This document shows positions 866 through 52,911 of a stretch of 57,227 nucleotides of DNA, in pieces (the first letter of the stretch is position 1; every line of letters starts with the position of its first letter). The position numbers and the translations under genes were made by a program. The notes below the pieces were generated by a model. It had not been told where the DNA came from, did not search any database, and was given only the letters and a program-made list of their open reading frames with translations. The stretch comes from Nitrospinota bacterium (GTDB taxonomy: Bacteria > 2-12-FULL-45-22 > JACOWJ01). The stretch is from contig JACOWJ010000028.1 in assembly GCA_016176845.1 (NCBI GenBank), positions 1 to 57,227 of the forward strand, written 5' to 3'.

Positions 866-916
866 AGGTTTTAAGTTTTAAGTTTTAGGTTTTAGGGCTT
901 AAAACTTAAAACCTAA
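866..916. repeat. Heptad repeat, inverted pair (TTTTAAG type)
   Basis: Left arm has units TTTTAAG, TTTTAAG, TTTTAGG, TTTTAGG; right arm has CTTAAAA, CTTAAAA, CCTAAG. The arms can pair into a long hairpin. The right arm abuts residual rseP codons directly. Confidence 0.85.
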
Positions 917-937
917 GCCAAATGGGGTGGAGTCGGG

Positions 938-1906
938 GTGGAGAGGTTCTCCCTGGGCTTCCCCCCGAAGCTTTGGGGGAAGAAGTGGGGAGATACGGAA
1001 TATGCCATCTCGGCAATTCCTTTTGGGGGCTACGTGAAGCTCTCCGGGCAGGACCCGAAGGAAGAAGTGGTCGATGACGCGAAATCCTTTTCGGCCAAGC
1101 CTGTCCTCATCCGGATGCAGGTGGTGGTGGCCGGCCCTTTGTTTAATCTGCTTTGTGCGGTCCTGATCTTCACGGTGGTTCACCTGAGCGGGGTGCCGTC
1201 CCTGATCTCGAAGGTGGGAGAGGTGAAGGCAGGCTCTCCCGCCATAAAGGCGGGCCTGAAGCAAGGGGACCGGATCGTGGCCATCGAGGGCGAGCGGGTG
1301 GCAGAATGGGATCAACTCACGAAGTTCATCCATAACAATCCCGGAAAACGCTTGCATTTGGTGATCCAGAGGGGATCGAAAGAGTTCTCCGTTCAGGTAA
1401 CTCCAGAGGCCCAAACCGTAGAAGACCCCATTCGTGGGAGGAAAACACAAATAGGCCTGATCGGCATCGCCCCGGCCGAGGAGTACATCTACAAGCGATA
1501 CAACCCGATCGTCGCCCTTTATAAGGGGTTTGAAAAGACCTGGCAGGTTACGGAGTTTACCTTCATCAGCATCCTTCGGATCTTTCAAAAGGTCATTCCT
1601 GCTCATTCGATTGGCGGACCCATTATGATCCTGCAGATGGCGGGACAGCAAGCGCAGCAGGGCGCCCTTAACCTGGTCTTTTTCGTGGCCCTGTTGAGCG
1701 TCAACCTGGCCGTGCTGAACCTGTTGCCTGTCCCGCTCTTGGACGGGTGGCACCTCTTCCTGCTCTCGATCGAAGGCCTAATCGGACGCCCTATCAGCCT
1801 GGGAAAGCAAGAGATCGCCCAAAGGGTGGGGCTCCTGCTGCTGATCTCCCTGATGTTGTTTGCCTTCTACAACGACCTTATGAGGATCTTCGGGGGCTTG
1901 AAATAG
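938..1906 (+). CDS. rseP: Site-2 protease RseP, 5'-truncated (HExxH missing)
   Basis: Intramembrane zinc metalloprotease family that cleaves anti-sigma factors and signal-peptide remnants in the inner membrane. The visible 322 residues start VERFSLGFPPKLWG, which in full-length RseP follows the first membrane helix and the HELGH zinc motif. A PDZ domain spans roughly residues 90-170 (VGEVKAGSPAIKAGLKQGDR). The second catalytic motif is present as LLPVPLLDGWH near residue 265, followed by C-terminal membrane segments. Reading upstream in frame gives only AKWGG before a TAA at 914-916, so about 30 N-terminal residues are replaced by the heptad repeat at 866-916. As it stands the protein cannot bind catalytic zinc. 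Deletion or assembly collapse are both possible. Confidence 0.85.
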   Translation: MERFSLGFPPKLWGKKWGDTEYAISAIPFGGYVKLSGQDPKEEVVDDAKSFSAKPVLIRMQVVVAGPLFNLLCAVLIFTVVHLSGVPSLISKVGEVKAGSPAIKAGLKQGDRIVAIEGERVAEWDQLTKFIHNNPGKRLHLVIQRGSKEFSVQVTPEAQTVEDPIRGRKTQIGLIGIAPAEEYIYKRYNPIVALYKGFEKTWQVTEFTFISILRIFQKVIPAHSIGGPIMILQMAGQQAQQGALNLVFFVALLSVNLAVLNLLPVPLLDGWHLFLLSIEGLIGRPISLGKQEIAQRVGLLLLISLMLFAFYNDLMRIFGGLK

Positions 1907-1957
1907 GGGATAGGGAACAGGGGATAGGGAACAGGGAACAGGGAACAGGGAACAGGA
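1904..1957. repeat. Heptad repeat, left arm (GATAGGG/AACAGGG)
   Basis: Tandem 7-bp units GATAGGG and AACAGGG directly after the rseP stop. The approximate reverse complement lies at 2047-2100, making a wide inverted pair upstream of ispG. Confidence 0.8.
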
Positions 1958-1999
1958 GCTCCCTCCCCCTATCCTTTGCTCATGGTGCCCCATTCATCG

Positions 2000-2029
2000 G
2001 AAAAGGGAATTCCAATGCGACTAAATTTA
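2000..2029. repeat. AGGAAATTCCT-type element, degenerate copy
   Basis: Contains GGGAATTCCAATGCGACTAA, a diverged copy of the element seen ten more times in this window (best form GGAAATTCCTATGCGATTAA). Confidence 0.55.
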
Positions 2030-2046
2030 GCAGTATCGCGGAGAAT

Positions 2047-2100
2047 CCCTGTAACCTGTCCCCTGTCCCCTGTCCCCTGTAACCTATAACCTGTAACCTG
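2047..2100. repeat. Heptad repeat, right arm (CCCTGTC/CCTGTAA)
   Basis: 7-bp units CCTGTAA, CCTGTCC (three times), CCTGTAA, CCTATAA, CCTGTAA ending at the ispG ribosome-binding region. Roughly the reverse complement of 1904-1957. Confidence 0.8.
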
Positions 2101-2105
2101 GAGCT

Positions 2106-3206
2106 ATGCTGAACGTGCAACCCATTGCTGCGAGCGGGACACAGATTGAGCGGCGCCCATCCAGGGCCATCGCCGTGGGGAAAGTCATCGTGGGAGGAAG
2201 CGCCCCCGTGGTGGTTCAGTCCATGACCAAGACGGACACTCGGGATGTAGTCGCCACCGTCGGGCAGATCCGGGAGATGGAAAAGGCGGGGTGCGAACTG
2301 GTTCGGCTGGCCATCCCGGACATGAAGGCCGCCGACGCCTTGGGGGAGATCCGGAGGCAAGTGGAGGTCCCACTCGTTGCGGATATCCATTTCGACTACC
2401 GACTCGCCCTGAAAGCCATCGAGAAAGGAGCCGATGGTTTGAGGATCAATCCGGGCAACATCGGCGGGCAGGACAAGTTGGAGAGGGTGGTGCGGGCCTC
2501 CCAAGAGAGGCGGGTGCCCATACGGATCGGAGTGAACGCCGGTTCGCTGGAGCGGGAGCTGCTGCAGAAGGCCCGCCGAGGGGATCCTTCCGCCATGGTC
2601 GAGAGCGCATTGCGCTATATCGAGATCTTCGAGGGGTGGGGATTCTCCGAGATCAAGCTTTCCCTGAAGAGCTCGGATCCCTGGCAGACCATCCAGGCTT
2701 ACCGGATGATCGCCCGGCAGACGGATTATCCTTTGCACCTGGGGATCACGGAGGCGGGTACCCTGTTCTCCGGGCTGATCAAATCGGCCGTGGGGATCGG
2801 GGTCTTGCTGGCGGAGGGGATCGGCGATACCGTCCGCGTCTCTCTGAGCGAGGACCCGGTGATGGAGGTCCGGGCGGCCTATGCCATCCTGGGCTCTCTG
2901 GGACTGAGGCGCAGAGGCGTGGAGGTCATCTCATGCCCCACTTGTGGCCGGTGCCAGCTGGAGGTCATCTCGCTGGCCAAAAGGGCAGAGGCAGAGCTAA
3001 GCTCCCTGGCCGCCCCCCTGAAGGTAGCCATCATGGGCTGCGAGGTCAATGGTCCCGGGGAGGCCCGGGAGGCCGATGTGGGGATTACCGGGGGGAAAGG
3101 ACGAGGGCTCCTGTTCAAAAAGGGGGAGGTCATCCGGAAGGTCGAAAAGGGGGAGCTCTATGCGGCCTTGATGGAAGAGGTGAAGAAGCTGACCGGTCAT
3201 TTGTAA
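2106..3206 (+). CDS. ispG: 4-hydroxy-3-methylbut-2-en-1-yl diphosphate synthase (IspG/GcpE)
   Basis: A [4Fe-4S] enzyme of the methylerythritol-phosphate isoprenoid pathway, converting methylerythritol cyclodiphosphate to HMBPP. The 366 residues match the short two-domain bacterial form. The TIM-barrel part carries VVVQSMTKTDTRDV near residue 35 and ADGLRINPGNIG near 110. The C-terminal cluster domain carries CPTCGRCQLEV near 279 and MGCEVNGPGEARE near 312, giving three cysteines plus the conserved Glu as cluster ligands. The ATG at 2106 follows CTGGAGCT, which is the tail of the heptad repeat, so repeat DNA appears to provide the ribosome-binding site. In relatives it usually sits after rseP, as here, and before proS, which is absent. 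Confidence 0.96.
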   Translation: MLNVQPIAASGTQIERRPSRAIAVGKVIVGGSAPVVVQSMTKTDTRDVVATVGQIREMEKAGCELVRLAIPDMKAADALGEIRRQVEVPLVADIHFDYRLALKAIEKGADGLRINPGNIGGQDKLERVVRASQERRVPIRIGVNAGSLERELLQKARRGDPSAMVESALRYIEIFEGWGFSEIKLSLKSSDPWQTIQAYRMIARQTDYPLHLGITEAGTLFSGLIKSAVGIGVLLAEGIGDTVRVSLSEDPVMEVRAAYAILGSLGLRRRGVEVISCPTCGRCQLEVISLAKRAEAELSSLAAPLKVAIMGCEVNGPGEAREADVGITGGKGRGLLFKKGEVIRKVEKGELYAALMEEVKKLTGHL

Positions 3207-3248
3207 TTCTGGCCATTTTGTGTTATATTTGTTGCACAAAATGGGTTC

Positions 3249-3284
3249 AAGAAAAAGTGGGCCTTGAGCCCACTTTTTCTTTTG
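3249..3284 (+). terminator. Intrinsic terminator/attenuator ahead of rimP-nusA
   Basis: A perfect 14-bp inverted repeat (AAGAAAAAGTGGGC at 3249-3262, its complement at 3268-3281) with a 5-nt loop CTTGA and a T-rich 3' arm. It lies 57 nt before the rimP start. Its GTGGGC-loop-GCCCAC core and position resemble the rimP leader found upstream of rimP-nusA operons in many proteobacteria. An attenuator role is inferred from position. Confidence 0.75.
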
Positions 3285-3341
3285 TGCTTCATTTACGAGG
3301 GTTTGAGAACTAAGCCTTTGAGAGCTTGATGAAAGACCGTC

Positions 3342-3806
3342 ATGGGAAAGGAAGGCCTTTTAATCCGGATCGAGAGGCTCATCAAGCCGATCCTCCTCTC
3401 TGAAGGGATGGAGCTGGTGGATCTGGAGTTTAGCCGACAGGGGAAACGGTGGTATCTGAGGATTTACATGGACAAGAAGGGAGGCGTAAACCTGAGGGAC
3501 TGCGAGCATATCAGCCATCAGGTCGAACGGGTCTTGGATGTAGAAGACCTGATTCCTCAGAGTTACGTTTTAGAGGTCTCTTCTCCTGGCTTAGATAGAC
3601 CCCTGAAGAAGAGGGAGGATTACCTGAGGTATCGGGGCAGGTTGATCAAATTCTCGACCTCGACCGCCATTCAAGGCAGGAAGAACTTTGTGGGCACTCT
3701 GAAGGAAATGAAGGAGGATGTGGTCTGGGTCGAACTGAAGGGAGGAGAGCTCCTGCAGGTACCTTGGCCTGAAATTGTGAAGGCCAGGCTGGAGGTAGAT
3801 TTTTAG
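3342..3806 (+). CDS. rimP: Ribosome maturation factor RimP
   Basis: A 154-residue cytoplasmic factor for 30S subunit maturation. The N-terminal alpha/beta domain includes RIERLIKPILLSEGMELVDLEF and DCEHISHQVERVLDVEDLI. The family signature YVLEVSSPGLDRPLKKREDY lies near residues 65-86, followed by the C-terminal SH3-like domain (FVGTLKEMKEDVVWVEL) ending at LEVDF. Length is normal. It heads the classical rimP-nusA-ylxR-infB operon, with nusA starting 38 nt downstream and an attenuator-like hairpin upstream. No internal lesion is seen. Confidence 0.95.
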   Translation: MGKEGLLIRIERLIKPILLSEGMELVDLEFSRQGKRWYLRIYMDKKGGVNLRDCEHISHQVERVLDVEDLIPQSYVLEVSSPGLDRPLKKREDYLRYRGRLIKFSTSTAIQGRKNFVGTLKEMKEDVVWVELKGGELLQVPWPEIVKARLEVDF

Positions 3807-3844
3807 AGGAGGAATCCCAAGGTACGGGAAAAGGGCTTGGCACG

Positions 3845-5134: not shown

Positions 5135-5159
5135 TAAGGATCCTATACGATTCAAGATA

Positions 5160-5226
5160 AGTTTTAGGTTTTAAGTTTTAGGTCTTAGGTCTTAAAACTT
5201 GAAACTTGAAACTTGAAACTTGAAAA
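5160..5226. repeat. Heptad repeat, inverted pair (TTTTAGG / CTTGAAA)
   Basis: Left arm has TTTTAGG, TTTTAAG, TTTTAGG and TCTTAGG; right arm has five units of the TTGAAAC type. The arms are imperfect complements. It lies between nusA and ylxR inside the operon. Confidence 0.85.
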
Positions 5227-5241
5227 TGGAAATTCCTATAC
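5223..5241. repeat. AGGAAATTCCT-type element
   Basis: Reads AAAATGGAAATTCCTATAC, one of eleven copies in the window, immediately after the heptad tract and just upstream of the probable ylxR start. Confidence 0.7.
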
Positions 5242-5267
5242 ATTCAAATGAGCCAATATTCGCGACC

Positions 5268-5864
5268 ATGATGTACCCCCAAAGGACCTGCATCGGCTGC
5301 AGGCAGACTCGAACCAAAAGCGAATTGATTCGATGGAGCTGGTCACCTTCCCTGGGGGTAAAGATCGACCTGGAGGGCAGGCTACCCGGAAGGGGAGGGT
5401 ATACCTGCCTTTCTCTTTCCTGTTGGGAACAAGCCCTAAAAGGACACCGACTGAACCGGGTCTTTCGCAAACCGATCCCAATCCCGTCGCTTGATGAGCT
5501 TGCCGAACAGTTCCTCCATCAAAGCCATCGCAAGATCGGCTCGCTCCTGCGCGCGGCCCAGGAGGCGGGCCAAGGCATATCCGGCAAAAAGGTCCTGTCG
5601 GAACAGCTAAAGGCCGGCCAAGTCAGGCTGTTATTGATGGCTCGGGATATCGCGGAGGATCTAAAAGGGCAATATTTAGATCTCTGTCGGAAAGAAGGGA
5701 TAAGAGTTCGGTTCCTTCCTGCGAGTAAAAGAGAGCTGGGGACTCTCCTGGGAGATGGATGGCGGAGCGCCTTGGGCATTTTAGGACCTCATCTACCTCC
5801 GAAAATAGAGGGGATCCTGGAGGGGATAAAGAATTTTACCGTGAAAATGCCCGGGTCCTTCTGA
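5268..5864 (+). CDS. YlxR (DUF448) fused to an L7Ae-like domain
   Basis: A probable RNA-binding protein of the nusA-infB operon. The N-terminal YlxR domain has RTCIGCRQTRTKSELIRW within its first 20 residues and GRLPGRGGYTC near residue 43. A second domain from about residue 85 (KIGSLLRAAQEAGQGISGKK...VRLLLMARDIAEDL) resembles the L7Ae/YlxQ fold, so the two proteins encoded separately in Firmicutes are one chain here. An in-frame TTG at 5220 lies inside repeats, so ATG 5268 (or 5271) is preferred. The last residues, NFTVKMPGSF, are encoded by the two-hairpin repeat at 5834-5916, so the original C-terminus may have been altered by its insertion. Confidence 0.85.
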   Translation: MMYPQRTCIGCRQTRTKSELIRWSWSPSLGVKIDLEGRLPGRGGYTCLSLSCWEQALKGHRLNRVFRKPIPIPSLDELAEQFLHQSHRKIGSLLRAAQEAGQGISGKKVLSEQLKAGQVRLLLMARDIAEDLKGQYLDLCRKEGIRVRFLPASKRELGTLLGDGWRSALGILGPHLPPKIEGILEGIKNFTVKMPGSF

Positions 5865-8108: not shown

Positions 8109-8126
8109 CGCCTCCGCAGGAGGCGA

Positions 8127-8156
8127 ATTGGAAATTGGAAATTGGAAATTGGAAAA
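8127..8156. repeat. Heptad repeat, direct (ATTGGAA x4)
   Basis: Four tandem ATTGGAA units right after infB. Confidence 0.8.
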
Positions 8157-8180
8157 TTAAGGTATAAAAATTTCCTTTTT
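8155..8180. repeat. AGGAAATTCCT-type element, degenerate, reverse orientation
   Basis: On the minus strand it reads AAAAAGGAAATTTTTATACC, a diverged copy adjoining the heptad tract. Confidence 0.45.
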
Positions 8181-8250
8181 GACAGGACGGGCAGGATGAA
8201 AAGATGAATGCGATACAAGAAGCAAAGGACAAGGGGAACGAGTGATTACC

Positions 8251-8286
8251 CCTCCTGTTCCCTGTCCCCTGTAACCTGTCCCCTAA
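8251..8286. repeat. Heptad repeat (CCTGTCC/CCTGTAA)
   Basis: Units TTCCCTG, TCCCCTG, TAACCTG, TCCCCTA between infB and the DUF503 gene; same sequence class as 2047-2100. Confidence 0.75.
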
Positions 8287-8322
8287 TTTAACAATGTCCT
8301 GCCATGATCAGCAGGTAACAAG

Positions 8323-8604: not shown

Positions 8605-8628
8605 GCCCGCCTCGCTGCGCGAGAATTG

Positions 8629-8713
8629 TAAAATGCAAAATGAAAAATGCAAATTGGAAGTGCAATTAATTAAAATTTGCACTTTGCATTTTACATTCTG
8701 CATTTTTCATTTG
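8629..8713. repeat. Heptad repeat, inverted pair (AAAATGC / TTTGCAT)
   Basis: Left arm units AAAATGC, AAAATGA, AAAATGC; right arm units TTTGCAC, TTTGCAT, TTTACAT, TCTGCAT, TTTTCAT. A hairpin-capable tract between DUF503 and rbfA. Confidence 0.8.
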
Positions 8714-8733
8714 TCTCAAAGGGGGGTTCTCCG

Positions 8734-9084
8734 ATGGAAAGGCCCAGACAGTTTAAGAGGACAGACAGGCTGAATGAGGTCATCAAGAAGGAGATCTGGG
8801 AACTGATCTTGCGAGAGATCAAGGACCCCAGGATCGGCTTCATCACCTTGACCCGAGTTGTGCTCTCCGACGACCTGAGACAAGCCAAGGTCTATGTGAG
8901 CATTTACGGGAAAGAGGAGGAGAAAAAAGAGACCTGCAACGGACTGAAGAGCGCATCGGGCTTTATCCGGGGGGAATTGGGGAAAAGGCTGAACCTGCGG
9001 TATACTCCGAAGATCGATTTCATCATGGATTCTTCGATCGAGTATGGGAGCCATATCAGCCAGATCCTGGACAATTTAAAATAA
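8734..9084 (+). CDS. rbfA: 30S ribosome-binding factor RbfA
   Basis: A late 30S assembly factor that binds near the 16S rRNA 5' helix. The 116 residues from ATG 8734 (MERPRQFKRTDRLNEVIKKE) form the single KH-like domain: REIKDPRIGFITLTRVVLSD near 32-51, then DLRQAKVYVSIYG, and the C-terminal FIRGELGKRLNLRYTPKIDF. AAAGGGGGG lies 7 nt before this ATG. An upstream in-frame ATG at 8677 would add 19 residues encoded by repeat DNA and is rejected. In relatives a DHH phosphoesterase gene often follows; here a heptad repeat leads straight to truB. Confidence 0.95.
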   Translation: MERPRQFKRTDRLNEVIKKEIWELILREIKDPRIGFITLTRVVLSDDLRQAKVYVSIYGKEEEKKETCNGLKSASGFIRGELGKRLNLRYTPKIDFIMDSSIEYGSHISQILDNLK

Positions 9085-9143
9085 GTTTTAAGTTTTAAGA
9101 TTTAAGTTTTAAGTCCTAAAACCTAACACCTAAAACTTAAAAC
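9083..9143. repeat. Heptad repeat, inverted pair (TTTTAAG / CCTAAAA)
   Basis: Left arm units TTTTAAG, TTTTAAG, ATTTAAG, TTTTAAG; right arm units CCTAAAA, CCTAACA, CCTAAAA, CTTAAAA. It starts in the rbfA stop codon and lies between rbfA and truB. Confidence 0.85.
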
Positions 9144-9185
9144 TTTGAAGTAGTCGTCAAAAAGGGGAATGGTCGCGGTTCGCTT

Positions 9186-9875: not shown

Positions 9876-9919
9876 AGGGAAAGGCCATAGGACATAGATT
9901 TTCATCGCTGCCATTAAAT

Positions 9920-9952
9920 TAGGGGATAGGGAACAGGGAATAGGGAACAGGG
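9920..9952. repeat. Heptad repeat (GATAGGG/AACAGGG/AATAGGG)
   Basis: Units GATAGGG, AACAGGG, AATAGGG and AACAGGG in tandem between truB and rpsO; same class as 1904-1957. Confidence 0.8.
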
Positions 9953-9974
9953 TCCCAATAATCTGTACCTTAAC

Positions 9975-9996
9975 AATGGAAATTCCTATGCGATTT
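9975..9996. repeat. AGGAAATTCCT-type element
   Basis: AATGGAAATTCCTATGCGAT, an intact copy just upstream of the rpsO leader. Confidence 0.75.
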
Positions 9997-16146: not shown

Positions 16147-18530
16147 TAAACCAGTCTCCTTAAGGTGTCCAAGAGCACCTTCTGTTCAAATGTGGGCTTG
16201 GTTATATATGCGTTTGCTCCCACTTCAATCCCTCTTTTTTTGTCCTCTTCCGATGACAATGTCGTGACAAGGATGATGGGTAGTTCTTTATATCTCTTAT
16301 CTCGACGAATTTTTTCAGTGAGAGTTAAACCATCCATATTTGGCATTTGAATATCCGACACTACAGCATCAAAGGAGCGGATACTGAGCTTATTGAAGGC
16401 ATCTACGCCATCTATTGCTATAATTACTTCATATCCGGCACTTTCGAGAATACGCTTCTCTTGCGTTCGGGTTGTAATGGAGTCATCCACGAGCAAGATG
16501 TGTTTTTTCCTCTCTACTTCCTCAGCCGGTTTCTCAGGGGATACCGACGCTACCCGCTTCCGTATGGTCTTCAATAAATCCTGGGGATTTAAAATCATAC
16601 AGATCTCGCCCGTGGCGAGAATAGTTGCACCGGAAACGTTACGCACACGCTTCAGCATTCCGCCAAGCGATTTCAGTAAAACCTCCTGCTCTTCCAGCAA
16701 CGAATCCACCAGAAGTCCGAGCCGTTCTTCGCCGATTGAGAGAACAATACACGGCAGTTCTTTTTCCGTTTCCGACACCTTTTCCTCCTTGGAGGGAGCC
16801 ATCGAGTGGATGGCCCGTAACTCAAGGAGATCTGAAAGCCGGGCAACAGACACCGGCCGGCCATCGAGGGCGATGGTTTGGCGCCCTTCAACGGAAAAAA
16901 TATCCTGGGGCGATACCCAACGACTTGTTTGAACAAACTCTACCGGCAGGGCATAGTTTTGACCCTTCACCGCAGCAATGAGTACGCGGGCTGTAGTCAG
17001 AGTAATCGGCAGCTGCACCCGAAATATGCAGCCCGCACGGAAAGCGGATTCCAGCTGGATGGTTCCCTTGAGACGTTCCACGTTCGCTCGAACTACATCG
17101 AGACCCACGCCTCTGCCTGAGACATCGGTGACAAATGAGCTTGTTGAGAATCCATAGGCGAAAATAAGGGATTGTATCTGCGCGGGCGTCATTGCAGCAA
17201 CTTTTTCCTCGGGATAGATTTCCCTTTTTACAGCAGTGCGCTTAATTGTTTCGATATCCAACCCACGTCCATCGTCCATGAGCTCAATCACGATGTTTGT
17301 TGCAGTCTGGTATGCCCTGAGGCGGATCGTTCCACTGCGAGACTTGCCGCTCCGTTTGCGCTCCTCTGGTGATTCAATGCCGTGATCGATGGCGTTCCGG
17401 ATCATGTGCATCAGCGGGTCTTTTATCTCTTCGAGGATGCGCTTGTCCGCCGTTGTCTCTCCTCCTTCAATAAGCAGTTGAATCTCTTTAGATTGGTCTC
17501 TTGAGATGTCACGCACCATTCGGGGAAAGAGATTGAAGATGGTTGATAGCGGAAGGAGACGAACGGCCCGAATTCCTTCTTCCAATTCGCTTACAATAAA
17601 TTGAAGTCTTGCATTGTCTTCGGATGCTTCAATTTTCATCCGGTTGAGAAGAATCCCCAAACGTTCGAGACGTTCTCGTTCCCTTTCGTGAAAATGGATC
17701 AATTTCCTCCCATCATCATGATTGCGAGCGCCACGTTCAAAAATCCGGTTCCGCTCGGTGCCGATTTCGCTGAGCAAAGAGCGATGGGCAAATGCATCCC
17801 TGTTCCACTCCTCCCATAGCCCAACGGCTTCCTCGATCCCGATAAGGCGACGGACGATCCGGGTCTTCGTCACGGTCAGTTCCCCCGCTTGGGTGATCAA
17901 CCCATCCAACTTCTGAGGTGCAACTCGAATCGTCTCGATAGGCGATCCCCTGGGTCCGATTGGGGAGGGCGGAAAATTCGAGGGCTGACTCTGAAACGGC
18001 CCGATTGCGGATGGCAGGTCCCGATTTGCGGAATTTCCGAGATCCGGCATCGGTTGAGTGCTTGAGGATGGCGAAGGCGTACGCAGAGGGATCGAATCGT
18101 CGATCTCGGCATCGCCATGGGCGGTCTCGCCGGTCTCTTCGGGCTCGGTCGCAGGGGCATCGACGGGAAACGCGGCCAAGATGCTCGAGACACTGACATC
18201 AGAAGGTTCTCCGGTCACCGCCTGGCACACCAGCTTTCGGATCTCATCCAGCTTCTGATACAGATAATCGATAATTTTTGGCGAGAGAACGGTTTCCCCA
18301 CGCTTCGCCGAACCCAACATATCCTCAAACCGATGCGCGATTATTTCAACATCCGTCACGCCAAGCATCTTCGAAGCGCCCTTCAGGCTGTGGGCCTCAC
18401 GAAACACATCCTCCAAAGTTACCCGGTCGTTGGGGTTGGCTTCCAACCGAAGTAAACCCTCGTCGAGGCGCTGTAAGTGTTCCTCGCTCTCTGTTTTAAA
18501 GAGTACACGGAGCTCTTCATCTTCAATCAT
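16146..18530 (-). CDS. cheA: Hybrid chemotaxis kinase CheA with C-terminal receiver
   Basis: The signal-transducing kinase of the che cluster, 794 residues. Domains in order: Hpt (1-105, phospho-His47 in REAHSLKGAS), a Pro/Ser-rich linker without an obvious P2 domain, P3 dimerisation (about 200-330), ATPase (about 335-505: MIRNAIDHGIESPEERK, DDGRGLDIETI, SGRGVGLDVVRANVE), CheW-like P5 (about 510-640) and a receiver (about 665-794: LLVDDSITTRT, phospho-Asp in VVSDIQMPNMDG, Lys in YITKPTF). The CheA-REC layout is typical of Frz/Wsp-like or alternative-function systems more than classical flagellar chemotaxis. It follows the MCP gene and overlaps cheB. Confidence 0.95.
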   Translation of the reverse strand: MIEDEELRVLFKTESEEHLQRLDEGLLRLEANPNDRVTLEDVFREAHSLKGASKMLGVTDVEIIAHRFEDMLGSAKRGETVLSPKIIDYLYQKLDEIRKLVCQAVTGEPSDVSVSSILAAFPVDAPATEPEETGETAHGDAEIDDSIPLRTPSPSSSTQPMPDLGNSANRDLPSAIGPFQSQPSNFPPSPIGPRGSPIETIRVAPQKLDGLITQAGELTVTKTRIVRRLIGIEEAVGLWEEWNRDAFAHRSLLSEIGTERNRIFERGARNHDDGRKLIHFHERERERLERLGILLNRMKIEASEDNARLQFIVSELEEGIRAVRLLPLSTIFNLFPRMVRDISRDQSKEIQLLIEGGETTADKRILEEIKDPLMHMIRNAIDHGIESPEERKRSGKSRSGTIRLRAYQTATNIVIELMDDGRGLDIETIKRTAVKREIYPEEKVAAMTPAQIQSLIFAYGFSTSSFVTDVSGRGVGLDVVRANVERLKGTIQLESAFRAGCIFRVQLPITLTTARVLIAAVKGQNYALPVEFVQTSRWVSPQDIFSVEGRQTIALDGRPVSVARLSDLLELRAIHSMAPSKEEKVSETEKELPCIVLSIGEERLGLLVDSLLEEQEVLLKSLGGMLKRVRNVSGATILATGEICMILNPQDLLKTIRKRVASVSPEKPAEEVERKKHILLVDDSITTRTQEKRILESAGYEVIIAIDGVDAFNKLSIRSFDAVVSDIQMPNMDGLTLTEKIRRDKRYKELPIILVTTLSSEEDKKRGIEVGANAYITKPTFEQKVLLDTLRRLV

Positions 18531-21059: not shown

Positions 21060-21090
21060 GTTATGGTCCCCCCCTCACCCCTACCGGGGG

Positions 21091-21123
21091 GTTAGGGGTT
21101 AGGGATTAGGGGTTAGGGGTTAG
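21091..21123. repeat. Heptad repeat (TTAGGGG)
   Basis: Units TTAGGGG, TTAGGGA, TTAGGGG, TTAGGGG, TTAG between cheR and the CheW gene. Confidence 0.8.
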
Positions 21124-21154
21124 TAAAGAAGAGGTTTCGCCTATCCCATCGAGT

Positions 21155-24478: not shown

Positions 24479-24503
24479 CTTTTCCTTTCCTCCTCTTAAA
24501 AGC

Positions 24504-24527
24504 AGGGGTTAGGGGTTAGGGGTTAGT
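24504..24527. repeat. Heptad repeat, left arm (TTAGGGG x3)
   Basis: Three TTAGGGG-type units forming an inverted pair with 24555-24600, between two cytochrome genes. Confidence 0.8.
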
Positions 24528-24554
24528 AGAGAAACGCACTATTTACATCGATCT

Positions 24555-24600
24555 GCTAACCCCTAATCCCTAACCCCTAACCTCTAATCCCTAGTCCCTG
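24555..24600. repeat. Heptad repeat, right arm (CCCCTAA)
   Basis: Units CTAACCC, CTAATCC, CTAACCC, CTAACCT, CTAATCC, CTAGTCC. The tract supplies the stop codon (TAG) of the adjoining pentaheme gene. Confidence 0.8.
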
Positions 24601-25418
24601 TGAACGAGGGTCCTCCGATAGCCGATCGCGATCACCAGAGCCACCAGCAGGAACCCGATGGAAATCATACCGACGAACCTTCGGTGGTTCGCCTCTCGAT
24701 CCAACCGAGATAGATCGTCCCCGATCTTCTCCATCACCGATGTGAGCTGCTGTTCCTTTCGGATTGTCCGGTTCACCGCCATCTCGTGGACCAGCTTCTC
24801 CACCTCTTCCTTGACCCCCCCCAACTCTCTCCGCATCGGGTCTACGCTCATCCCTTTGTTCCAAACCTCGGCCAGCAGGAGGTTGGCCTTCTTAACCTGG
24901 TCGTTAATCCGCATCAGGCCCTGCTTGACCTTTTTGGAATCGGCGAAATCATGGCAGTCGGAACAATCGTCCTCCGTAATGATCCTTTTCAAAGAGGGAG
25001 GCCTGATGTTGTGGACCCCATGGCAGGCCGTACAGGTCGGGGCATCCGTCCCCGCCCTCAGCGCCTCCCCGTGAGGGCCTTGGAGGAAGCTCTCCCTTTC
25101 CGTCCCGTGACACTGGCCGCAAAAGTCCGGGATTTGCTCCTCTTCGGGCTTTCCCAGATAGCCGGCCTTGCTCGATTTAGCGGCCTTCTTCGTATGGGCT
25201 TTGGGATTCCCCCCGTGGCAGCCATCACAGGAGACCTGGTGGAGCGCATGGACGCTCTTCTGCCAGTCCCGGACTGGATCGCGCAGCTTCTTTTCCCTCT
25301 CCTCGAGGTGGCACTCCTGGCAGGAGCCGGTCTCGACCTCCTGGGCCCAAAGCCCTCTGCTCCCTCCTCCACCCAGGATCGCCAGGACCAAAAAAAGACC
25401 CCAGACCCACCTGCTCAA
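24591..25418 (-). CDS. Membrane-anchored pentaheme cytochrome c
   Basis: A 275-residue protein with a signal peptide (VWGLFLVLAILGGGG...LWAQ), five CXXCH motifs (CQECH, CDGCH, CGQCH, CTACH, CSDCH) within residues 33-155, then a helical stretch and a C-terminal membrane helix (FVGMISIGFLLVALVIAIGY, about 246-265). It would sit on the outer face of the inner membrane. The TTG start at 25418 is supported by GGAGG 10 nt upstream. It follows the subunit IV gene by 65 nt, so it is a candidate replacement for the missing cytochrome c1/f of this bc-type complex. Partner assignment is inference. Confidence 0.87.
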   Translation of the reverse strand: MSRWVWGLFLVLAILGGGGSRGLWAQEVETGSCQECHLEEREKKLRDPVRDWQKSVHALHQVSCDGCHGGNPKAHTKKAAKSSKAGYLGKPEEEQIPDFCGQCHGTERESFLQGPHGEALRAGTDAPTCTACHGVHNIRPPSLKRIITEDDCSDCHDFADSKKVKQGLMRINDQVKKANLLLAEVWNKGMSVDPMRRELGGVKEEVEKLVHEMAVNRTIRKEQQLTSVMEKIGDDLSRLDREANHRRFVGMISIGFLLVALVIAIGYRRTLVHRD

Positions 25419-30376: not shown

Positions 30377-30395
30377 CGACCGGATCTCCTCAATT

Positions 30396-30430
30396 AGCTC
30401 ATAGCTCATAGCTCATGGCTCATAGCTCAC
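30396..30430. repeat. Heptad repeat (AGCTCAT x4)
   Basis: Units AGCTCAT, AGCTCAT, AGCTCAT, GGCTCAT, AGCTCAC just upstream of the porin gene. Confidence 0.8.
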
Positions 30431-30435
30431 ACCGG

Positions 30436-30465
30436 AAAAAGGAAATTCCTATACCATTCAATTGG
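30436..30465. repeat. AGGAAATTCCT-type element
   Basis: AAAAAGGAAATTCCTATACC followed by ATTCAATTGG, adjoining the AGCTCAT heptads. Confidence 0.7.
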
Positions 30466-34283: not shown

Positions 34284-34308
34284 GGCTCATAGCTCATAGC
34301 TCATAGCA
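34284..34308. repeat. Heptad repeat (AGCTCAT x3)
   Basis: Units GGCTCAT, AGCTCAT, AGCTCAT, AGC upstream of the nonaheme gene; same unit as 30396-30430. Confidence 0.75.
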
Positions 34309-34356
34309 GCCGGAGCTTCGAGCTATAGATGTTGCCGTTTGCTTTTGGAATTCTTA

Positions 34357-34385
34357 GTAGGGGCGACCGGGCCGGTCGCCCCTAC
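34357..34385. repeat. Perfect hairpin GTAGGGGCGACC
   Basis: GTAGGGGCGACC (34357-34368) and GGTCGCCCCTAC (34374-34385) pair perfectly with a 5-nt loop. No T-run follows on either strand, so it is more likely a dispersed repeat than a terminator. Confidence 0.7.
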
Positions 34386-34428
34386 CTCTGCCGCGGCAAA
34401 ATTCCAAATTGTTTTTCCAATATCTATA

Positions 34429-34456
34429 GAAAAGGAAATTCCTATGCGATTAAATT
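34429..34456. repeat. AGGAAATTCCT-type element
   Basis: AAAAGGAAATTCCTATGCGA then TTAAATTA, one of the most intact copies. Confidence 0.75.
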
Positions 34457-38080: not shown

Positions 38081-38146
38081 AGCTAGGGATTAGTTCCTCG
38101 CCCCTGCTTTTACTAGCCCCTAACCCCTAATCCCTAAACCCTAACT
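38081..38146. repeat. Heptad repeat, inverted pair (CTAGGGA / CCCTAAC)
   Basis: CTAGGGATTAG on the left and five units of the TAACCCC/TAATCCC type on the right, ending at the ribosome-binding site of the next gene. Confidence 0.75.
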
Positions 38147-38161
38147 TGAGGAGGTAGATCC

Positions 38162-42779: not shown

Positions 42780-42793
42780 CCTGTACCTCTGAT

Positions 42794-42855
42794 GAGGGGC
42801 TAGGGGCTAGTAAAAACCCTTTACTAATCCCTAACCCCTAACCCCTCATCCCTAA
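42794..42855. repeat. Heptad repeat, inverted pair (CTAGGGG / CCCCTAA)
   Basis: Left arm GGGGCTAGGGGCTAG; right arm units CTAATCC, CTAACCC, CTAACCC, CTCATCC, CTA; between the two PilT-type genes. Confidence 0.8.
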
Positions 42856-43928
42856 AATGGTTCCTCCGGGGGTTTTCTGAGAAAGGAAAGGAACTTGGAT
42901 TTATCGCTCGCCTTGTCGTAGGCCTCCTCCCCGCTGATCCACCTCTTCTCCAGCAGGTTCAAGATCGCCATGTCCAAGGTTTGCATGCCGAACTTGGCCC
43001 CCGTCTGGATGGACGATGGGATCTGAAAGGTCTTCGCCTCCCGGATCAGGTTGGAGATGGCCGGAGTGCCGACCAGGATCTCCAGGGCAGCGCAACGTCC
43101 CTTGACATCGATCCGTTTGAAGAGGTTCTGGGCGATCACGCCCTTGAGGGAATCGGCCAGGCTGGAACGGATTTGAGCCTGCTGGTGGGAGGGAAAGACC
43201 TCAATCACCCGGTCCACGGTGCGAGCGGCGCTTGAGGTGTGCAGGGTCCCAAAGACCAGGTGGCCCGTATTGGCTGCCTCGATTGCCAGGGCGATCGTCT
43301 CCAGGTCTCGCATTTCGCCCACCAGGATAATGTCGGGGTCCTCTCGCAATGCCCCCCTCAAGGCCGCCGTAAAGGAATGGGTATGGAGTCCCACCTCCCG
43401 GTGATTCACGACGCAGCTTTGGCTCTTGTGGACGAACTCAATGGGGTCTTCCACGGTGATGATATGGTGCTTTCGGCTCCGATTGGAATAATCCACTATG
43501 GCCGCCAGGGTGGTGGACTTCCCGCTGCCGGTGGGCCCGGTGACCAGGACCAATCCCCGCTCCAACATGGCGAACTTCTTCACCACTGGGGGTAACCCCA
43601 GTTGATCGGCCGTCAGGATCTGGCTGGGGATCAAGCGGAAGACCGCCCCTATCCCGTTCTTTTGGTTGAAGAAATTTGCCCGGTAGCGGGCCGCGCCCGG
43701 GATCTCGTAAGCGAAGTCCACGTCGCCCGTCTCTTCGAAGATCTTGATCTTGTACTCCGGGGCGATCTCGTAGAGCATGGTCTTTAGCTCATCGTTATCC
43801 AACTCCTTGTATTTGACCCGCTCCATATCCCCCCGAATTCGGAGGACCGGCTGAGAGCCGGCCACCATGTGCAAGTCCGAGGCGCCCTGGTCATTCATCA
43901 ACTTGAAAAAGGCATCAATCTTGGCCAT
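42852..43928 (-). CDS. pilT: Type IV pilus retraction ATPase PilT
   Basis: A 358-residue ATPase that disassembles pili for twitching or surface sensing. The start MAKIDAFFKLMNDQGASDLH is the classic PilT N-terminus. The core has Walker A GPTGSGKSTTLAAIVDYSN near 130, EDPIEFVHKSQSCVVNHREV, Walker B DPDIILVGEMRDLET near 197 and GHLVFGTLHTSSAARTVDRV. The C-terminal retraction motif reads PAISNLIREAKTFQI, close to AIRNLIREGK. The stop codon lies in the last units of the heptad tract. No pilin or assembly genes lie in the window apart from the gspE/pilB remnant at 22.7 kb. Confidence 0.94.
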   Translation of the reverse strand: MAKIDAFFKLMNDQGASDLHMVAGSQPVLRIRGDMERVKYKELDNDELKTMLYEIAPEYKIKIFEETGDVDFAYEIPGAARYRANFFNQKNGIGAVFRLIPSQILTADQLGLPPVVKKFAMLERGLVLVTGPTGSGKSTTLAAIVDYSNRSRKHHIITVEDPIEFVHKSQSCVVNHREVGLHTHSFTAALRGALREDPDIILVGEMRDLETIALAIEAANTGHLVFGTLHTSSAARTVDRVIEVFPSHQQAQIRSSLADSLKGVIAQNLFKRIDVKGRCAALEILVGTPAISNLIREAKTFQIPSSIQTGAKFGMQTLDMAILNLLEKRWISGEEAYDKASDKSKFLSFLRKPPEEPF

Positions 43929-45742: not shown

Positions 45743-45770
45743 AACTTGATCATATAGGAATCTCCTTTTT
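45743..45770. repeat. AGGAAATTCCT-type element, degenerate, reverse orientation
   Basis: Contains TTGATCATATAGGAATCTCC then TTTTT; a diverged copy beside the heptad pair. Confidence 0.5.
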
Positions 45771-45788
45771 AGACAGGATTTACGGGAA

Positions 45789-45857
45789 AGTTTTAAGTTT
45801 CAGGTTTTAAGTGTTAAGCAAGAAACCTAAAACTTAACACCTAAAACTTAAAACTTA
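45789..45857. repeat. Heptad repeat, inverted pair (TTTTAAG / CCTAAAA)
   Basis: Left arm units TTTTAAG, TTTCAGG, TTTTAAG, TGTTAAG; right arm units CCTAAAA, CTTAACA, CCTAAAA, CTTAAAA, CTTA. It lies between convergent genes and could act as a bidirectional stem. Confidence 0.85.
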
Positions 45858-45877
45858 GCTTCCATCTTAGCAACTGC

Positions 45878-46917: not shown

Positions 46918-46945
46918 ATTCAATCGCATAGGAATTTCCATTTTC
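46918..46945. repeat. AGGAAATTCCT-type element, reverse orientation
   Basis: ATTCAATCGCATAGGAATTT then CCATTTTC, an intact copy. Confidence 0.75.
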
Positions 46946-46962
46946 AGCAAAGAACCCCCCCA

Positions 46963-46983
46963 CCCCCCCTTCCGAAGGGGGGG
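46963..46983. repeat. C7/G7 hairpin
   Basis: CCCCCCCTT pairs with AAGGGGGGG around CCG, followed by a second G-run. Looks like a dispersed G-rich repeat. Confidence 0.6.
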
Positions 46984-47093
46984 AAAGGGGGGGTAATTTA
47001 TAGGATGAGAGGTAAATTCAAAACGGGCAGCAATGCCCATTTGGCTAATCGGGTTGGAATCGGAATTCCCGCCCGATGAAAGAGAGGAGTAAA

Positions 47094-48053: not shown

Positions 48054-48057
48054 CAAT

Positions 48058-48086
48058 CTTAATCGCATAGGAATTTCCATTTTTTG
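48058..48086. repeat. AGGAAATTCCT-type element, reverse orientation
   Basis: CTTAATCGCATAGGAATTTC then CATTTTTTG, directly after repeat copy D. Confidence 0.75.
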
Positions 48087-48151
48087 AGGGGCTAGAGGCT
48101 TGGGGTTATCAAAAATTCTTCTTCACTAGTCCCTAATCCCTAATCCCTAAC
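48086..48151. repeat. Heptad repeat, inverted pair (GGGGCTA / TCCCTAA)
   Basis: Left arm GGGGCTAGAGGCTTGGGGTT; right arm TAGTCCC, TAATCCC, TAATCCC, TAAC; upstream of the CoA transferase gene. Confidence 0.7.
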
Positions 48152-48165
48152 TTGAGGAGGGCGTT

Positions 48166-49407: not shown

Positions 49408-49431
49408 GACTGAAAGGAATTGAAAAATTTT

Positions 49432-50628
49432 TCAACGGTAGGCTTTGACCGTCTCGATGAAGGCCTCTACGTTCTCTCCGGACGCGGCCGGCGGGATCTC
49501 GCAGCCGCTCATCACGATGTAGTTGGGGACCTCCCGCATGTGATCCAGCATCTCCCGAGTGTCCCGGCGGACCTCCTCCGGGGTGCCGGTGAAGAGGGCC
49601 TTCAAGGGCGAGAGGTTGCCCATGACCGCCACCGTGGGGGGGACCTGGGAGGCCACGGCGGCCAGATCGACGTAAGCGTCCAGGCTCAGTCCCTGGACCC
49701 CCGTGGCGGCCATCTGCCCTATGAGGTGGCCCGTGTTTCCGCAAACGTGGAGTACGAGGAGCGCCCCCCGAACCCCCTCGACCACCCGCCGGACACAGGG
49801 GGCCACGAACTCCTGGTAGGCCTTGGCGGAGAGGAGGCTCGAGGTGGGGTCGCCGACCATCACCAGGTTGGCCCCCGCCTTCACGTGGGCATTGGCGTCG
49901 GCGATGATGATCTCGGTGGCGTAGTCCAGGACCCTTTTCACCAGGGCGGGATCCTTGAAGGTCTTCTTGGTGATGTCCTCGACCCCCATGAGCATGCCGG
50001 CCAGGGAGAAGGGGCCGACGGTCAGGGCACATCGGAGCAGGGTGAAGCCCTGTGCGAAGAGGCGGGTGGTGTGGATGAAATCGGGCCAGCGGCCATCCTG
50101 AGCCGGGTCCAGGGGGCGTAGCCTCTCCAGATCCTCCCAGGATTTGATAGGATGGCTCACCACCATGGGGGGGGAATCGTCGGGCAAGGAGACTTTGCAT
50201 CCCATCGAGCTGAGGGGGATGCCACCGAAGTTGCACATGGCGATATCGGGCTTGAGCCGGGAGACGCCTTGGGAAATGACCTCGAACTGCTTGCGGCTCC
50301 CGCCGATGATGGTCTCACGGATGGTGGCCCCCGCCAGGCGGGCATACTGGTTGATCATCAGGGGAAAGACGATCCGGCGTCCGGCGATCCGGGCCAGCTC
50401 GACCAGGGTCAGCCGGTGCAGCTCCTCTTGAAGCTCCAGCCCCAACGGGCGCAACTCGGGGGTGAGTCCGATCCACCCCAGCAGATCCATCAGGGGCTCG
50501 GTCTTCCGATCGCCTTCCGTCCCTTCCAACCATCGACAGATCCTCTCCCGGCCGGGAAGAGGGTCCCCTCCCCTATTCCATTCCTGTAAGATTCCAACGA
50601 TCCCCTGAGCCTCTTTCGGCAGCGGCAT
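49432..50628 (-). CDS. Uroporphyrinogen decarboxylase-family protein (corrinoid methyltransferase-like)
   Basis: A 398-residue TIM-barrel protein of the UroD superfamily. Features include RIVFPLMINQYARLAGATIR near residue 85, KPDIAMCNFGGIPLSS, ILMGVEDI-type helix LAGMLMGVEDITKKTF, DANAHVKAGANLVMVGDPTS near 235, and the zinc-site-like LHVCGNTGHLIGQMAATG near 292 with GLSLDAYVDL. The His-x-Cys pattern is seen in MtaA/MtbA-type methylcobamide:CoM methyltransferases, so this is likelier a methyl-transfer protein than the heme-pathway HemE. Ribosome-binding site AAGGAGGAG precedes ATG 50628. No corrinoid protein gene is adjacent. Confidence 0.82.
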   Translation of the reverse strand: MPLPKEAQGIVGILQEWNRGGDPLPGRERICRWLEGTEGDRKTEPLMDLLGWIGLTPELRPLGLELQEELHRLTLVELARIAGRRIVFPLMINQYARLAGATIRETIIGGSRKQFEVISQGVSRLKPDIAMCNFGGIPLSSMGCKVSLPDDSPPMVVSHPIKSWEDLERLRPLDPAQDGRWPDFIHTTRLFAQGFTLLRCALTVGPFSLAGMLMGVEDITKKTFKDPALVKRVLDYATEIIIADANAHVKAGANLVMVGDPTSSLLSAKAYQEFVAPCVRRVVEGVRGALLVLHVCGNTGHLIGQMAATGVQGLSLDAYVDLAAVASQVPPTVAVMGNLSPLKALFTGTPEEVRRDTREMLDHMREVPNYIVMSGCEIPPAASGENVEAFIETVKAYR

Positions 50629-50657
50629 CCATTCTCCTCCTTCATTCAGGGACTTTG

Positions 50658-52250
50658 TTAAGAGGGTTTAAGAAGAACGCGGCCTTGGCGGGTCGCGCGC
50701 CGCAACAACGACTCCGTCCGCGCTTTCAAAGCTGGATCGGCCCAAAGCTCGTGCATCTTCCAAGGGAGCCGGTACGTCCAGTTCTCGGCGATCGTGGTTC
50801 CTGGGACATTGATGCGGTCGCGTGTTCCGAACAGATCCTGGATGGGAAGGATCACCAGGTCGGACCCGGCGCCGTAGAGCGCCTCCAGCAGGGCATCGTG
50901 GACGAGGGGATTGAACCTCCGCGCCTGGGATTCGCCAAGGTGCGCCAGCGCGGAGACCTTCAGAACTTCGGCGCGTTCCTCTTCCTTCATCGCATCCCAC
51001 CAGACGGCGAGCGTTTCGGTATCGTGGGTGCCCGAGGTAGCGACCGAGAGCGGCGGATAACTTCGCGGATCGCGGAAGGGCTGGCCCTCTTGGTGCCACT
51101 CCTTTTCCCAGCGGAACACCCGATAGCCCGGTATCCCCAGGCGCGTGAGAGACCCCCGCACGAAATCGGGCACGATTCCCAAATCCTCGGCGACGACGCG
51201 TCGTGCGGCCCCGGCCTGGAAGATCCGCATGATCGTCTCGCCAAGCTTCAGCTGTTCCGGCTCCTCCTGGGGCATGAAGTACGGTTTGGCCCCCGATCTC
51301 GGGCGAACGTACGTCCGGTAGAAGCCGACCACATGGTCAACCCGGTAGTAGTCGAACAGCTCCGCGCTTCGGGCGGCGCGCTGGCGCAGCCATTCATAAC
51401 CATTGCGGGCCATGGCCTCCCAGTCGCAGGGAGGCAATCCCCAGTCTTGTCCCTCGGCGCTGAAGGCGTCGGGCGGCGCGCCTACGTTAGCGTCGAGGCG
51501 CATCTCGGACTGGCGCACCCAGACGTCGGCGCTATCGCGAGCGACCATGAACGGGAGGTCTCCCATCAGCCGGACCTCCACGGTGGACGCGGTACGACGA
51601 GCCTGATGCCACTGCCGGTTCGCGTGCCATTGTACAAATTGGTAGAACAGGATCTCCTCTGCGAGCGATTGTCTGGCCGCCTCGAGGGCCTTCGTTCGTC
51701 GTTCGCGCAACGGCTTCTCCCACCTTCCCCACGAGGTTTTGCGATGGAGATGGAGCGTGCGATAAAGAGCACAATCCGCCAGCCAGTGCTGGTTTTCGCA
51801 ACAGAAGCGCTCGAGCTCGGCGGCGCGCGCCGATGAGGTGTTCCACTCACACTGATAGAAGTGCGCGAAGGAGGCCCTCAAGGCCCTCTCTTTCAGCGGG
51901 CGAATCAGATCATAGGCCACTGCGGGCGCCCGGCGCGCTTTTTCCAGGCGGTTACGGTCAGCCCTGCTGAGCGCGGCCTCTCCTCCGGCCGCGTGAAAGT
52001 CCTCAATCTCCTCCATGCTCAAGTAAAGCGGATCTAAGGCGAAAGCGCTGAAAGGAGAGTAGGGGCTATTCTGCCCCATCGCCGGCTCCCCGATCGGAAG
52101 GAGTTGAAGCACAGAATGGCCGGCTTCGAAAAGCCATCGTGCAAACTCGCCCACCTCGGGGATCTCCCCCACTCCCCAATCGCGAGAGCTACGCAGCGAG
52201 AATAGTGGGACGAGTACTCCCGCCATGCGTTCGGAGAAACGGTTCGTCAT
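50658..52250 (-). CDS. malQ: 4-alpha-glucanotransferase (GH77)
   Basis: Cytoplasmic amylomaltase that rearranges alpha-1,4-glucans. The 530 residues match the usual GH77 length. The start RMAGVLVPLFSLRSSRDWGV with FARWLFEAGHSVLQLLPIGE is characteristic, as is YSPFSAFALDPLYLSM. Catalytic residues are visible: the nucleophile Asp in YYRVDHVVGF near 304, the acid/base Glu in VVAEDLGIVPDF near 358, and the transition-state Asp in TSGTHDTETLAVWW near 412. No strong ribosome-binding site precedes ATG 52250. It lies downstream of the hydrogenase genes on the same strand; a metabolic link is not evident. Confidence 0.95.
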   Translation of the reverse strand: MTNRFSERMAGVLVPLFSLRSSRDWGVGEIPEVGEFARWLFEAGHSVLQLLPIGEPAMGQNSPYSPFSAFALDPLYLSMEEIEDFHAAGGEAALSRADRNRLEKARRAPAVAYDLIRPLKERALRASFAHFYQCEWNTSSARAAELERFCCENQHWLADCALYRTLHLHRKTSWGRWEKPLRERRTKALEAARQSLAEEILFYQFVQWHANRQWHQARRTASTVEVRLMGDLPFMVARDSADVWVRQSEMRLDANVGAPPDAFSAEGQDWGLPPCDWEAMARNGYEWLRQRAARSAELFDYYRVDHVVGFYRTYVRPRSGAKPYFMPQEEPEQLKLGETIMRIFQAGAARRVVAEDLGIVPDFVRGSLTRLGIPGYRVFRWEKEWHQEGQPFRDPRSYPPLSVATSGTHDTETLAVWWDAMKEEERAEVLKVSALAHLGESQARRFNPLVHDALLEALYGAGSDLVILPIQDLFGTRDRINVPGTTIAENWTYRLPWKMHELWADPALKARTESLLRRATRQGRVLLKPS

Positions 52251-52336
52251 GGTTTCAGGTCTGCCTCATCCCCCCGTTCCATGAAGCCGTCCCATGACCC
52301 CCACGCTGGCCGGACTGGCCGGCGTCAGCCCGTTCA

Positions 52337-52699
52337 TCAGCCTCCCACCGTCTTCTGGAGTCGCTCCATGGCCTCCGAGAAGTGCTGCCGTCGGTGCTCT
52401 TCTGCAGCACGGGAATCCTCGGCCTTTTTGGCTAAGCGGCCCTGGCTGCTCTTCTCCATCAGGCCCAGGAAATGCTCGAAGTACTTCACCGCCTCCGAGT
52501 CGGGCGAGAGCTCCTTCATCTTCTCGAAGAGCGGGAGAACCGTGATCCGACCACAGGCATTCAGAATGCCATGCTCCTTATGGCTGGCGGTACAATCGCA
52601 GCAGACTCCATGGCGGGCACACTCGTAATTGGTACAGGGACAGGTGGACTGGATCTTATGCTCGCTACAATAACGAAGCTCGGTTTGAGTTAAAGGCAT
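52337..52699 (-). CDS. Cys-rich DUF6485-like protein beside the hydrogenase
   Basis: A 120-residue cytoplasmic protein. The N-terminal half is cysteine-rich: CSEHKIQSTCPCTNYECARH then GVCCDCTASHKEHGILNACG, seven or more Cys that could hold an Fe-S or zinc centre and match the DUF6485 pattern as I remember it. The C-terminal half is helical and charged (AEDSRAAEEHRRQHFSEAME). ATG 52699 is chosen because GGAGG lies 7-8 nt upstream; a longer frame from 52894 begins in repeat DNA. It is downstream of the [NiFe] hydrogenase large-subunit gene, so a redox role is plausible but unproven. Confidence 0.7.
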   Translation of the reverse strand: MPLTQTELRYCSEHKIQSTCPCTNYECARHGVCCDCTASHKEHGILNACGRITVLPLFEKMKELSPDSEAVKYFEHFLGLMEKSSQGRLAKKAEDSRAAEEHRRQHFSEAMERLQKTVGG

Positions 52700-52872
52700 C
52701 TCTTTTCCTCCGTGTTTCCGGGGGACCAAAGGATCCCCGCTGTTGCTCATGTCGGCCAGCGACTCTGCTCCTTCAGAAGGCGCAGACACACAGCCTCCTT
52801 TTCCAAACGTCCATCGTGGCTCACGACAAGCCGAGAAAGCTCCTTGAATTTCCTTGCCCTTGAGGGGATAAA

Positions 52873-52911
52873 TTTTGCAATTTTCATTTTGCATTTTGCA
52901 CTTTGCATTTC
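52873..52911. repeat. Heptad repeat (TTTGCAT)
   Basis: Units TTTGCAA, TTTTCAT, TTTGCAT, TTTGCAC, TTTGCAT, TTCGTAT between the Cys-rich gene and the hydrogenase large-subunit gene. Confidence 0.75.

Follow-up and report, generated by a model that had tools for sequence, protein, structure and literature searches.

Why should a single 57,227-nucleotide stretch of DNA (contig JACOWJ010000028.1 of the Nitrospinota assembly GCA_016176845.1, hereafter the window) hold so many intergenic tracts that repeat with a period of 7 bp but with units of varying sequence? The initial annotation took the constant period with changing units as the sign of a mechanism that makes heptads, instead of the spread of one element. 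Our analysis of the window and of the genome that carries it favors another answer for this genome. With a probability of roughly 0.6, the tracts form the arms of hairpins in small dispersed elements without coding capacity, of the kind represented by miniature inverted-repeat transposable elements (MITEs) and palindromic repeats, having conserved ends and exchangeable centers and copied around the genome.

The observation itself is confirmed: all the places named in that annotation are indeed 7-bp periodic. Among short periods, only 7 bp is in excess. When 18 or more of 21 positions had to match for a run to be called, which is also the threshold by which tracts were found, the window gave 16 runs for lag 7, whereas lags 2-6, 8-11 and 13 yielded none; lag 12 gave one run, longer lags a few, and lags 14 and 21 are harmonics. 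The same excess extends over the genome, a metagenome-assembled genome (MAG) that is 68% complete and of which 1.50 of 1.53 Mb were scanned. After subtraction of 5 runs of N, 272 lag-7 runs remain, compared with 0–3 N-corrected runs at most other lags, about 15 at lag 8 and about 12 at lags 16 and 24 (lags 14, 21 and 28 are harmonics of 7). A Markov-2 simulation of the genome produced N runs only and no further lag-7 runs. About five unit families cover the tracts of the genome, the top units being AAAACCT/AAAACTT, AAAATTG/AAAATGC, AACCCCT/AATCCCT, AACAGGG/ACAGGGG and AGCTATG. The intergenic location described for the window is general as well: by a simple gene caller, 86% of the tracts lie outside called genes, though intergenic sequence makes up only about 18% of the total. 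Tandem 7-bp units in excess over other lengths and mainly between genes are what characterizes heptameric simple sequence repeats. An inverted partner is present within 150 bp of 153 of the 272 tracts (56%). As for the long imperfect hairpins, DNA folding supported seven of the nine window pairs tested (z from −3.3 to −6.7), but the pairs at 38081 (z −1.2) and 48086 (z +1.1) fold weakly. For the single arms at 21091 and 30396, DNA folding gave no significant structure, and judged from their sequence the tracts at 8127, 8251, 9920, 34284 and 52873 look like single arms too.

In an analysis of over-represented words in the genome, heptads turned out to be joined to non-heptad sequence. The commonest right end, X, reads AAAAwGGAAATTCCTATrCGAT and is present in 175 copies at up to 3 mismatches; conservation continues as far as yAAnTTA, past which the sequence is random. 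In 113 parsed copies the left end is, depending on the center, yAArTTA (CAAGTTA or TAAATTA) or, for one payload class, GAACTTA. The terminal heptamer yAArTTA is in phase with the heptads of the element. The centers themselves either belong to four heptad families, in the form of hairpins or of arms, or are unrelated palindromes such as GATTGCTTCG...GCAATGACA, GATTCCTCG...GGAATGACA and the CCCCCC type, and most of the 62 copies without an automatic parse likewise close a palindrome. X elements chain in a single orientation, for example at 17067–17682 of contig C22. X ends were also sought in viral contigs, with no match.

X elements depart from MITEs in two respects. Neither of their ends, yAArTTA and AAAAwGGAAATTCCTATrCGAT, is an inverted repeat of the other, and the parsed copies show no target site duplication. 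The left and right heptamers match at 4.66 of 7 positions within a copy and at 4.53 ± 0.08 between copies; being barely more alike within copies than between them, they indicate that X elements do not duplicate their target. We also spliced together the sequences on either side of 96 unchained X elements and sought uninterrupted copies of the spliced sequence elsewhere; a looser first version of this test gave mostly trivial matches (chained elements, heptad self-similarity), and only the stricter one was relied on. Removal of the segment from TAAATTA to GAT at locus L090 restores an uninterrupted array of the B family (see below) that is 84.5% identical over 71 bp to L048, and the boundary that removes TAAATTA scores 76.1 bits compared with 67.1 when TAAATTA stays behind. 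This clean empty site likewise shows no duplication. Together with a second, ambiguous site considered below, these data support, though do not prove, that X inserts without duplication immediately 5′ of an nAAnTTA-like heptamer.

Exchangeable centers are not confined to X. A second type of end, Y (AGGAyyGksGACyAAATAACTTkCCCAT; 38 ends genome-wide), faces its counterpart in complete copies, so that Y elements, which have no coding capacity, possess the terminal inverted repeats of a MITE. The Y center is mostly a TTTTAAG heptad hairpin and otherwise another palindrome; at L084 9962 and L086 7980 it is a palindrome of CGATCACGATTGCGAGTACGATTAC-like repeats, not heptads. At L014, L023, L025 and L053 the MAG has contig ends and N gaps within Y heptad elements, so that tract lengths there may be limited by the assembly. 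Heptads of the B family (AATTG/ATGCAAA) stand behind variable GC hairpins, often directly after a stop codon. Conversely, the GATTGCTTCG...GCAATGACA (GATTGC-type) palindrome occupies the center in at least four different end pairs. The overall picture is one of fixed ends with exchangeable palindromic centers.

The arms vary in a manner compatible with this picture. X elements of the TTAGGG type share a loop core, while their arms hold 0–8 and 0–7 units with no correlation between them (r = −0.07), a pattern that fits copying of the element followed by slippage. Correction of one arm against the other in the hairpin, which would hold the arms equal, is unsupported by these uncorrelated lengths. 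The shared ends and loop cores argue that repeats within this genome spread by copying of elements and not by creation tract by tract. Starting from what the copies display directly (period, unit families, ends, shared cores, lack of duplication and independent arm lengths), we propose that X and Y end pairs carry an interchangeable palindromic center, heptad hairpin or other, and that an enzyme acting in trans would transpose them. X would insert 5′ of an nAAnTTA-like heptamer without duplicating it, often beside another X in the same orientation, by a mechanism probably resembling the one-strand transposition of IS200/IS605 elements. Slippage would then change the heptad count, independently in the two arms. 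The members found in the window are collected in Table 1.

Table 1. Heptad tracts and X and Y elements in the window (z, score of DNA folding)
Positions	Strand	Feature	Fold
822–916	+	Y element; terminal repeat AGGACTGGCGACCAAATAACTTTCCCAT 822–849, then TTTTAAG heptad hairpin 864–916	862–922, z −5.0
1903–2021	+	X element; AACAGGG/ATAGGGG heptad arm 1903–1956; right end X 2005–2021 (3 mismatches)	
2047–2100	.	CCTGTAA/CCTGTCC heptads (complementary unit family), just past X end	
5158–5244	+	X element; GTTTTAG/CTTGAAA heptad hairpin; X end 5228–5244	5158–5230, z −3.3
8122–8160	+	AATTGGA heptads (B family) immediately after GC hairpin, downstream of infB	
8159–8291	-	Reverse X element; X end 8159–8175 (4 mismatches); CCTGTCC heptads 8254–8284; terminal TAATTTA (= TAAATTA); adjoins B tract	
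8623–8715	.	AAAATGC/GCATTTT inverted heptad pair (B family) behind CTCGCTGCGCGAG hairpin; DUF503-rbfA gap	8618–8716, z −4.9
9078–9146	.	TTTTAAG/CTTAAAA inverted heptad pair; rbfA-truB gap; no X or Y end seen	z −4.0
9918–9994	+	X element; TAAATTA, GGGAACA heptads, TCCCAATAATCTGTACC, X end 9978–9994 (0 mismatches); truB-rpsO gap	
21087–21140	+	TTAGGGG heptads with family-like loop GTAAAGAAGAGGTTTCGC but no right arm; apparently a degenerated copy	
24504–24599	.	TTAGGGG/CCCCTAA inverted heptad pair	24500–24602, z −6.7
30393–30457	+	X element; CAATTA, GCTCATA heptads (single arm), X end 30441–30457	
34284–34450	+	AGTTGGCTCATA heptads, another palindrome, X end 34434–34450 (0 mismatches)	
38081–38148	.	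TAGGGAT/CTAACCC weak pair with terminal TAACTTG (CAAGTTA on the other strand); apparently a degenerated member of the X family that lacks the X end	z −1.2
42790–42858	.	AGGGGCT/CTAACCC heptad hairpin; core TTAGTAAA...TTTACTAA	z −5.3
45749–45860	-	Reverse X element; X end 45749–45765; GTTTTAAG heptad hairpin 45788–45857	45786–45860, z −4.7
46923–46939	-	X end beside non-heptad CCCCCC-type palindrome (46954–46993)	
48062–48158	-	Reverse X element; X end 48062–48078 (0 mismatches); TTAGGGG heptads 48086–48151; terminal TAACTTG	
52872–52912	-	ATTTTGC heptads (B family), single arm	
55759–55931	+	X element, non-heptad center: GATTGCTTCG...GCAATGACA palindrome; X end 55915–55931	

In 109 loci (1.40 Mb) of other lineages there were 16 lag-7 runs, some of them inverted pairs, and six genomes supplied them all: NPL-UPA2 Unc8, three Nitrospinota, a Nitrospira and one further bacterium. 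Unc8 holds 69 runs with 38 different units in 400 kb, a density near that of our genome, and its units shift in register along the arrays. The same 400 kb (L297–L316) also contain 18 period-8 tracts of the GGCACAAA type. The nearest genome, G001, comes from another family of the same order. Its 15 X ends go with the same TAAATTA but with different centers, and it has only 4 lag-7 tracts in 339 kb. A distant 5.0-Mb single-contig genome (G059, L233–L235) shows three X-like ends beside a different conserved palindrome. The link between X and Y1 transposases led nowhere beyond a RAYT-like (REP-associated tyrosine transposase; REP, repetitive extragenic palindrome) Y1 gene of G001, located between GTAG hairpins (L243, 1342–1998) with a degenerate X end just downstream. 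An autonomous X copy having a Y1 transposase between the same ends was seen neither in G001 nor in the 68% of our genome, and no enzyme is assignable to the mobilization of X.

How far, then, do the tracts belong to elements? With heptads masked, a repeated flank accompanies 174 of the 272 tracts (64%), compared with 88 of 272 control intergenic spots (32%). Dispersed repeats are thus abundant in this genome anyway, and many tracts, not all, lie within recognizable elements. Several observations weigh against the view of tracts as element arms. For the remaining 36% of tracts, among them the window's 9081, 21087, 24555, 38113 and 52878, no non-heptad flank is repeated elsewhere, and the 32% among controls means that the link between tracts and elements is incomplete. 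The second, nested empty-site case, at L012, aligns equally well at both boundaries. The 68%-complete genome yielded no member of the Y1 transposase family, and none of the five Y1 transposase copies in G001 lies between X ends. Just 3 of the 69 Unc8 tracts are accompanied by an inverted partner, and no common ends are obvious among the inspected Nitrospinota hairpins; from these two facts it follows that heptads exist independently of these elements. On the other side, some of the unlinked window tracts look like decayed members, the one at 38081 by its terminal TAACTTG and the one at 21091 by its family-like loop. The idea of a heptad-making mechanism in place of element spread therefore divides in two. 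Within this genome it gives way to dispersed elements with shared ends and loop cores. Across lineages it keeps some of its ground, since unrelated lineages hold unrelated units and the register drift in Unc8 suggests some 7-bp-specific copying. A preference for 7 does exist across lineages.

The strongest competitor, although an improbable one, is that heptads arose in place and grew by replication slippage at a length suited to the polymerase, with no mobile element involved. According to PMC4679880 and PMC4692102, which cite Mrazek 2007, most genomes have heptamers as their most frequent long simple repeat, for which slippage of the polymerase was proposed as the cause. A period of 7 with unrelated units in several phyla agrees with this explanation, as do the 38 units in 400 kb of Unc8 and the decay of unit identity with register distance. 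At lags 7, 14, 21, 28 and 35 this identity is 0.79, 0.71, 0.63, 0.53 and 0.43–0.47, the curve is nearly equal in our genome and in Unc8, and in both the off-register identity is lower than the in-register one. An apparent lack of perfect tracts was given no weight, since the tract limits take in mismatched edges by construction, and neither was a single-linkage network of the Unc8 units, for want of a comparison with chance. The lag-7 value, however, depends on the threshold used to find tracts (the longer lags do not, at least directly), lags 5 and 6 show no excess, which is unexpected under simple slippage, and in our genome complete elements recur whose non-heptad ends and loops are identical. 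Slightly less probable still is a copying process with a built-in 7-nucleotide step, acting on any sequence in several phyla: error-prone copying heptad by heptad would produce the register drift, and the products would be captured as centers of mobile palindromic elements. Because the identity decay matches in our genome and Unc8, a 7-bp-specific copying step is conceivable, and the recurrence of the same curve in a second phylum makes it testable.

It is unlikely that selection maintains the hairpins as signals in RNA or DNA for termination, mRNA stability, cold-shock protein binding or stops in all frames. The tracts are intergenic, form hairpins and occupy nearly every gap of the nusA-infB-rbfA-truB-rpsO cluster, and CspB is able to bind heptamer repeats (PMC4679880). 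At the same time, the centers are swapped between unrelated sequences, and the corresponding gaps of relatives are free of tracts: in the conserved cluster nusA-infB-DUF503-rbfA-truB-rpsO, the infB-DUF503 gap measures 214 bp in our genome, whereas in G001 and five other genomes it is about 6–52 bp and tract-free. X elements are not biased in orientation relative to co-directional genes (49:55), and the window has no Rfam family matches; we therefore see no sign of a transcript-level function. As for stop cassettes in all frames, they were rejected as a general cause of the number 7, since units such as GGGAATC are free of stops on both strands.

Very improbable is the possibility, raised for TAACTGA repeats (PMC4679880), that heptads are footprints of a transposon that duplicates a 7-bp target and leaves a copy at each excision. 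The phasing of yAArTTA with the heptads of X elements would suit such a process, but the terminal heptamers of one copy, left and right, are not duplicates of each other, so that a target duplication formed by them is rejected, and the clean empty site has none either. Equally improbable is retroelement-like copying, in which the heptad end would be an RNA 3′ tail on whose repeats reverse transcriptase slips, as in some eukaryotic short interspersed nuclear elements: one end is fixed and the other has a variable count of short units, yet heptads vary also in the arm that adjoins the fixed end.

If the tracts are element arms, as we favor, the genome ties many heptads to elements with a defined end, target and copy number, so that their spread can be traced, and these elements offer a home for palindromic repeats without a known transposase. 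The GATTGCTTCG...GCAATGACA palindromes share described features with the CGTC-tagged REP dimers, for which no transposase is known (PMC3733652): often a TGTC tag, an AT-first stem and an arrangement in facing pairs; here the palindrome is a companion center, not heptads. X and Y are like bacterial MITEs in being short, non-coding and dispersed, and in the inverted ends of Y; unlike MITEs, X has ends that are not inverted repeats, shows no target duplication and varies in its centers between copies. Hairpins, lack of target duplication and the apparent insertion of X beside a short target recall non-autonomous IS200/IS605 elements and REPs and REPINs (paired REPs forming hairpins), but no transposase is linked to X, no GTAG tag came to light, though no search aimed at it was made for the heptad hairpins, and REPs do not have heptad arms.

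Our tracts are also akin to published heptameric repeats, which are tandem, intergenic, of few units and scattered over phyla. GGGNATC heptamers are known from Xanthomonas and Nostoc, inverted heptad pairs included (PMC4692102), and TAACTGA heptamers from Beggiatoaceae, cyanobacteria and Bacteroidetes (PMC4679880). According to the accessible part of PMC2700814, Geobacter metallireducens has 49 dispersed copies with four GGGACCG heptads, and five MTYCTGA heptads as folded pairs; that part gives them as predicted regulatory elements or RNAs and reports no exchangeable center or common end. In a search that left out most subscription journals, we found no report of heptad hairpins as exchangeable centers of end-conserved elements. 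Whereas the published studies follow one unit family, our genome has about five, forming the centers of fixed-end elements. Bacterial heptamer repeats were on record even before 2007, and the heptamer excess and the slippage idea have been known since that year; what is new is that heptad hairpins are exchangeable centers in several element families.

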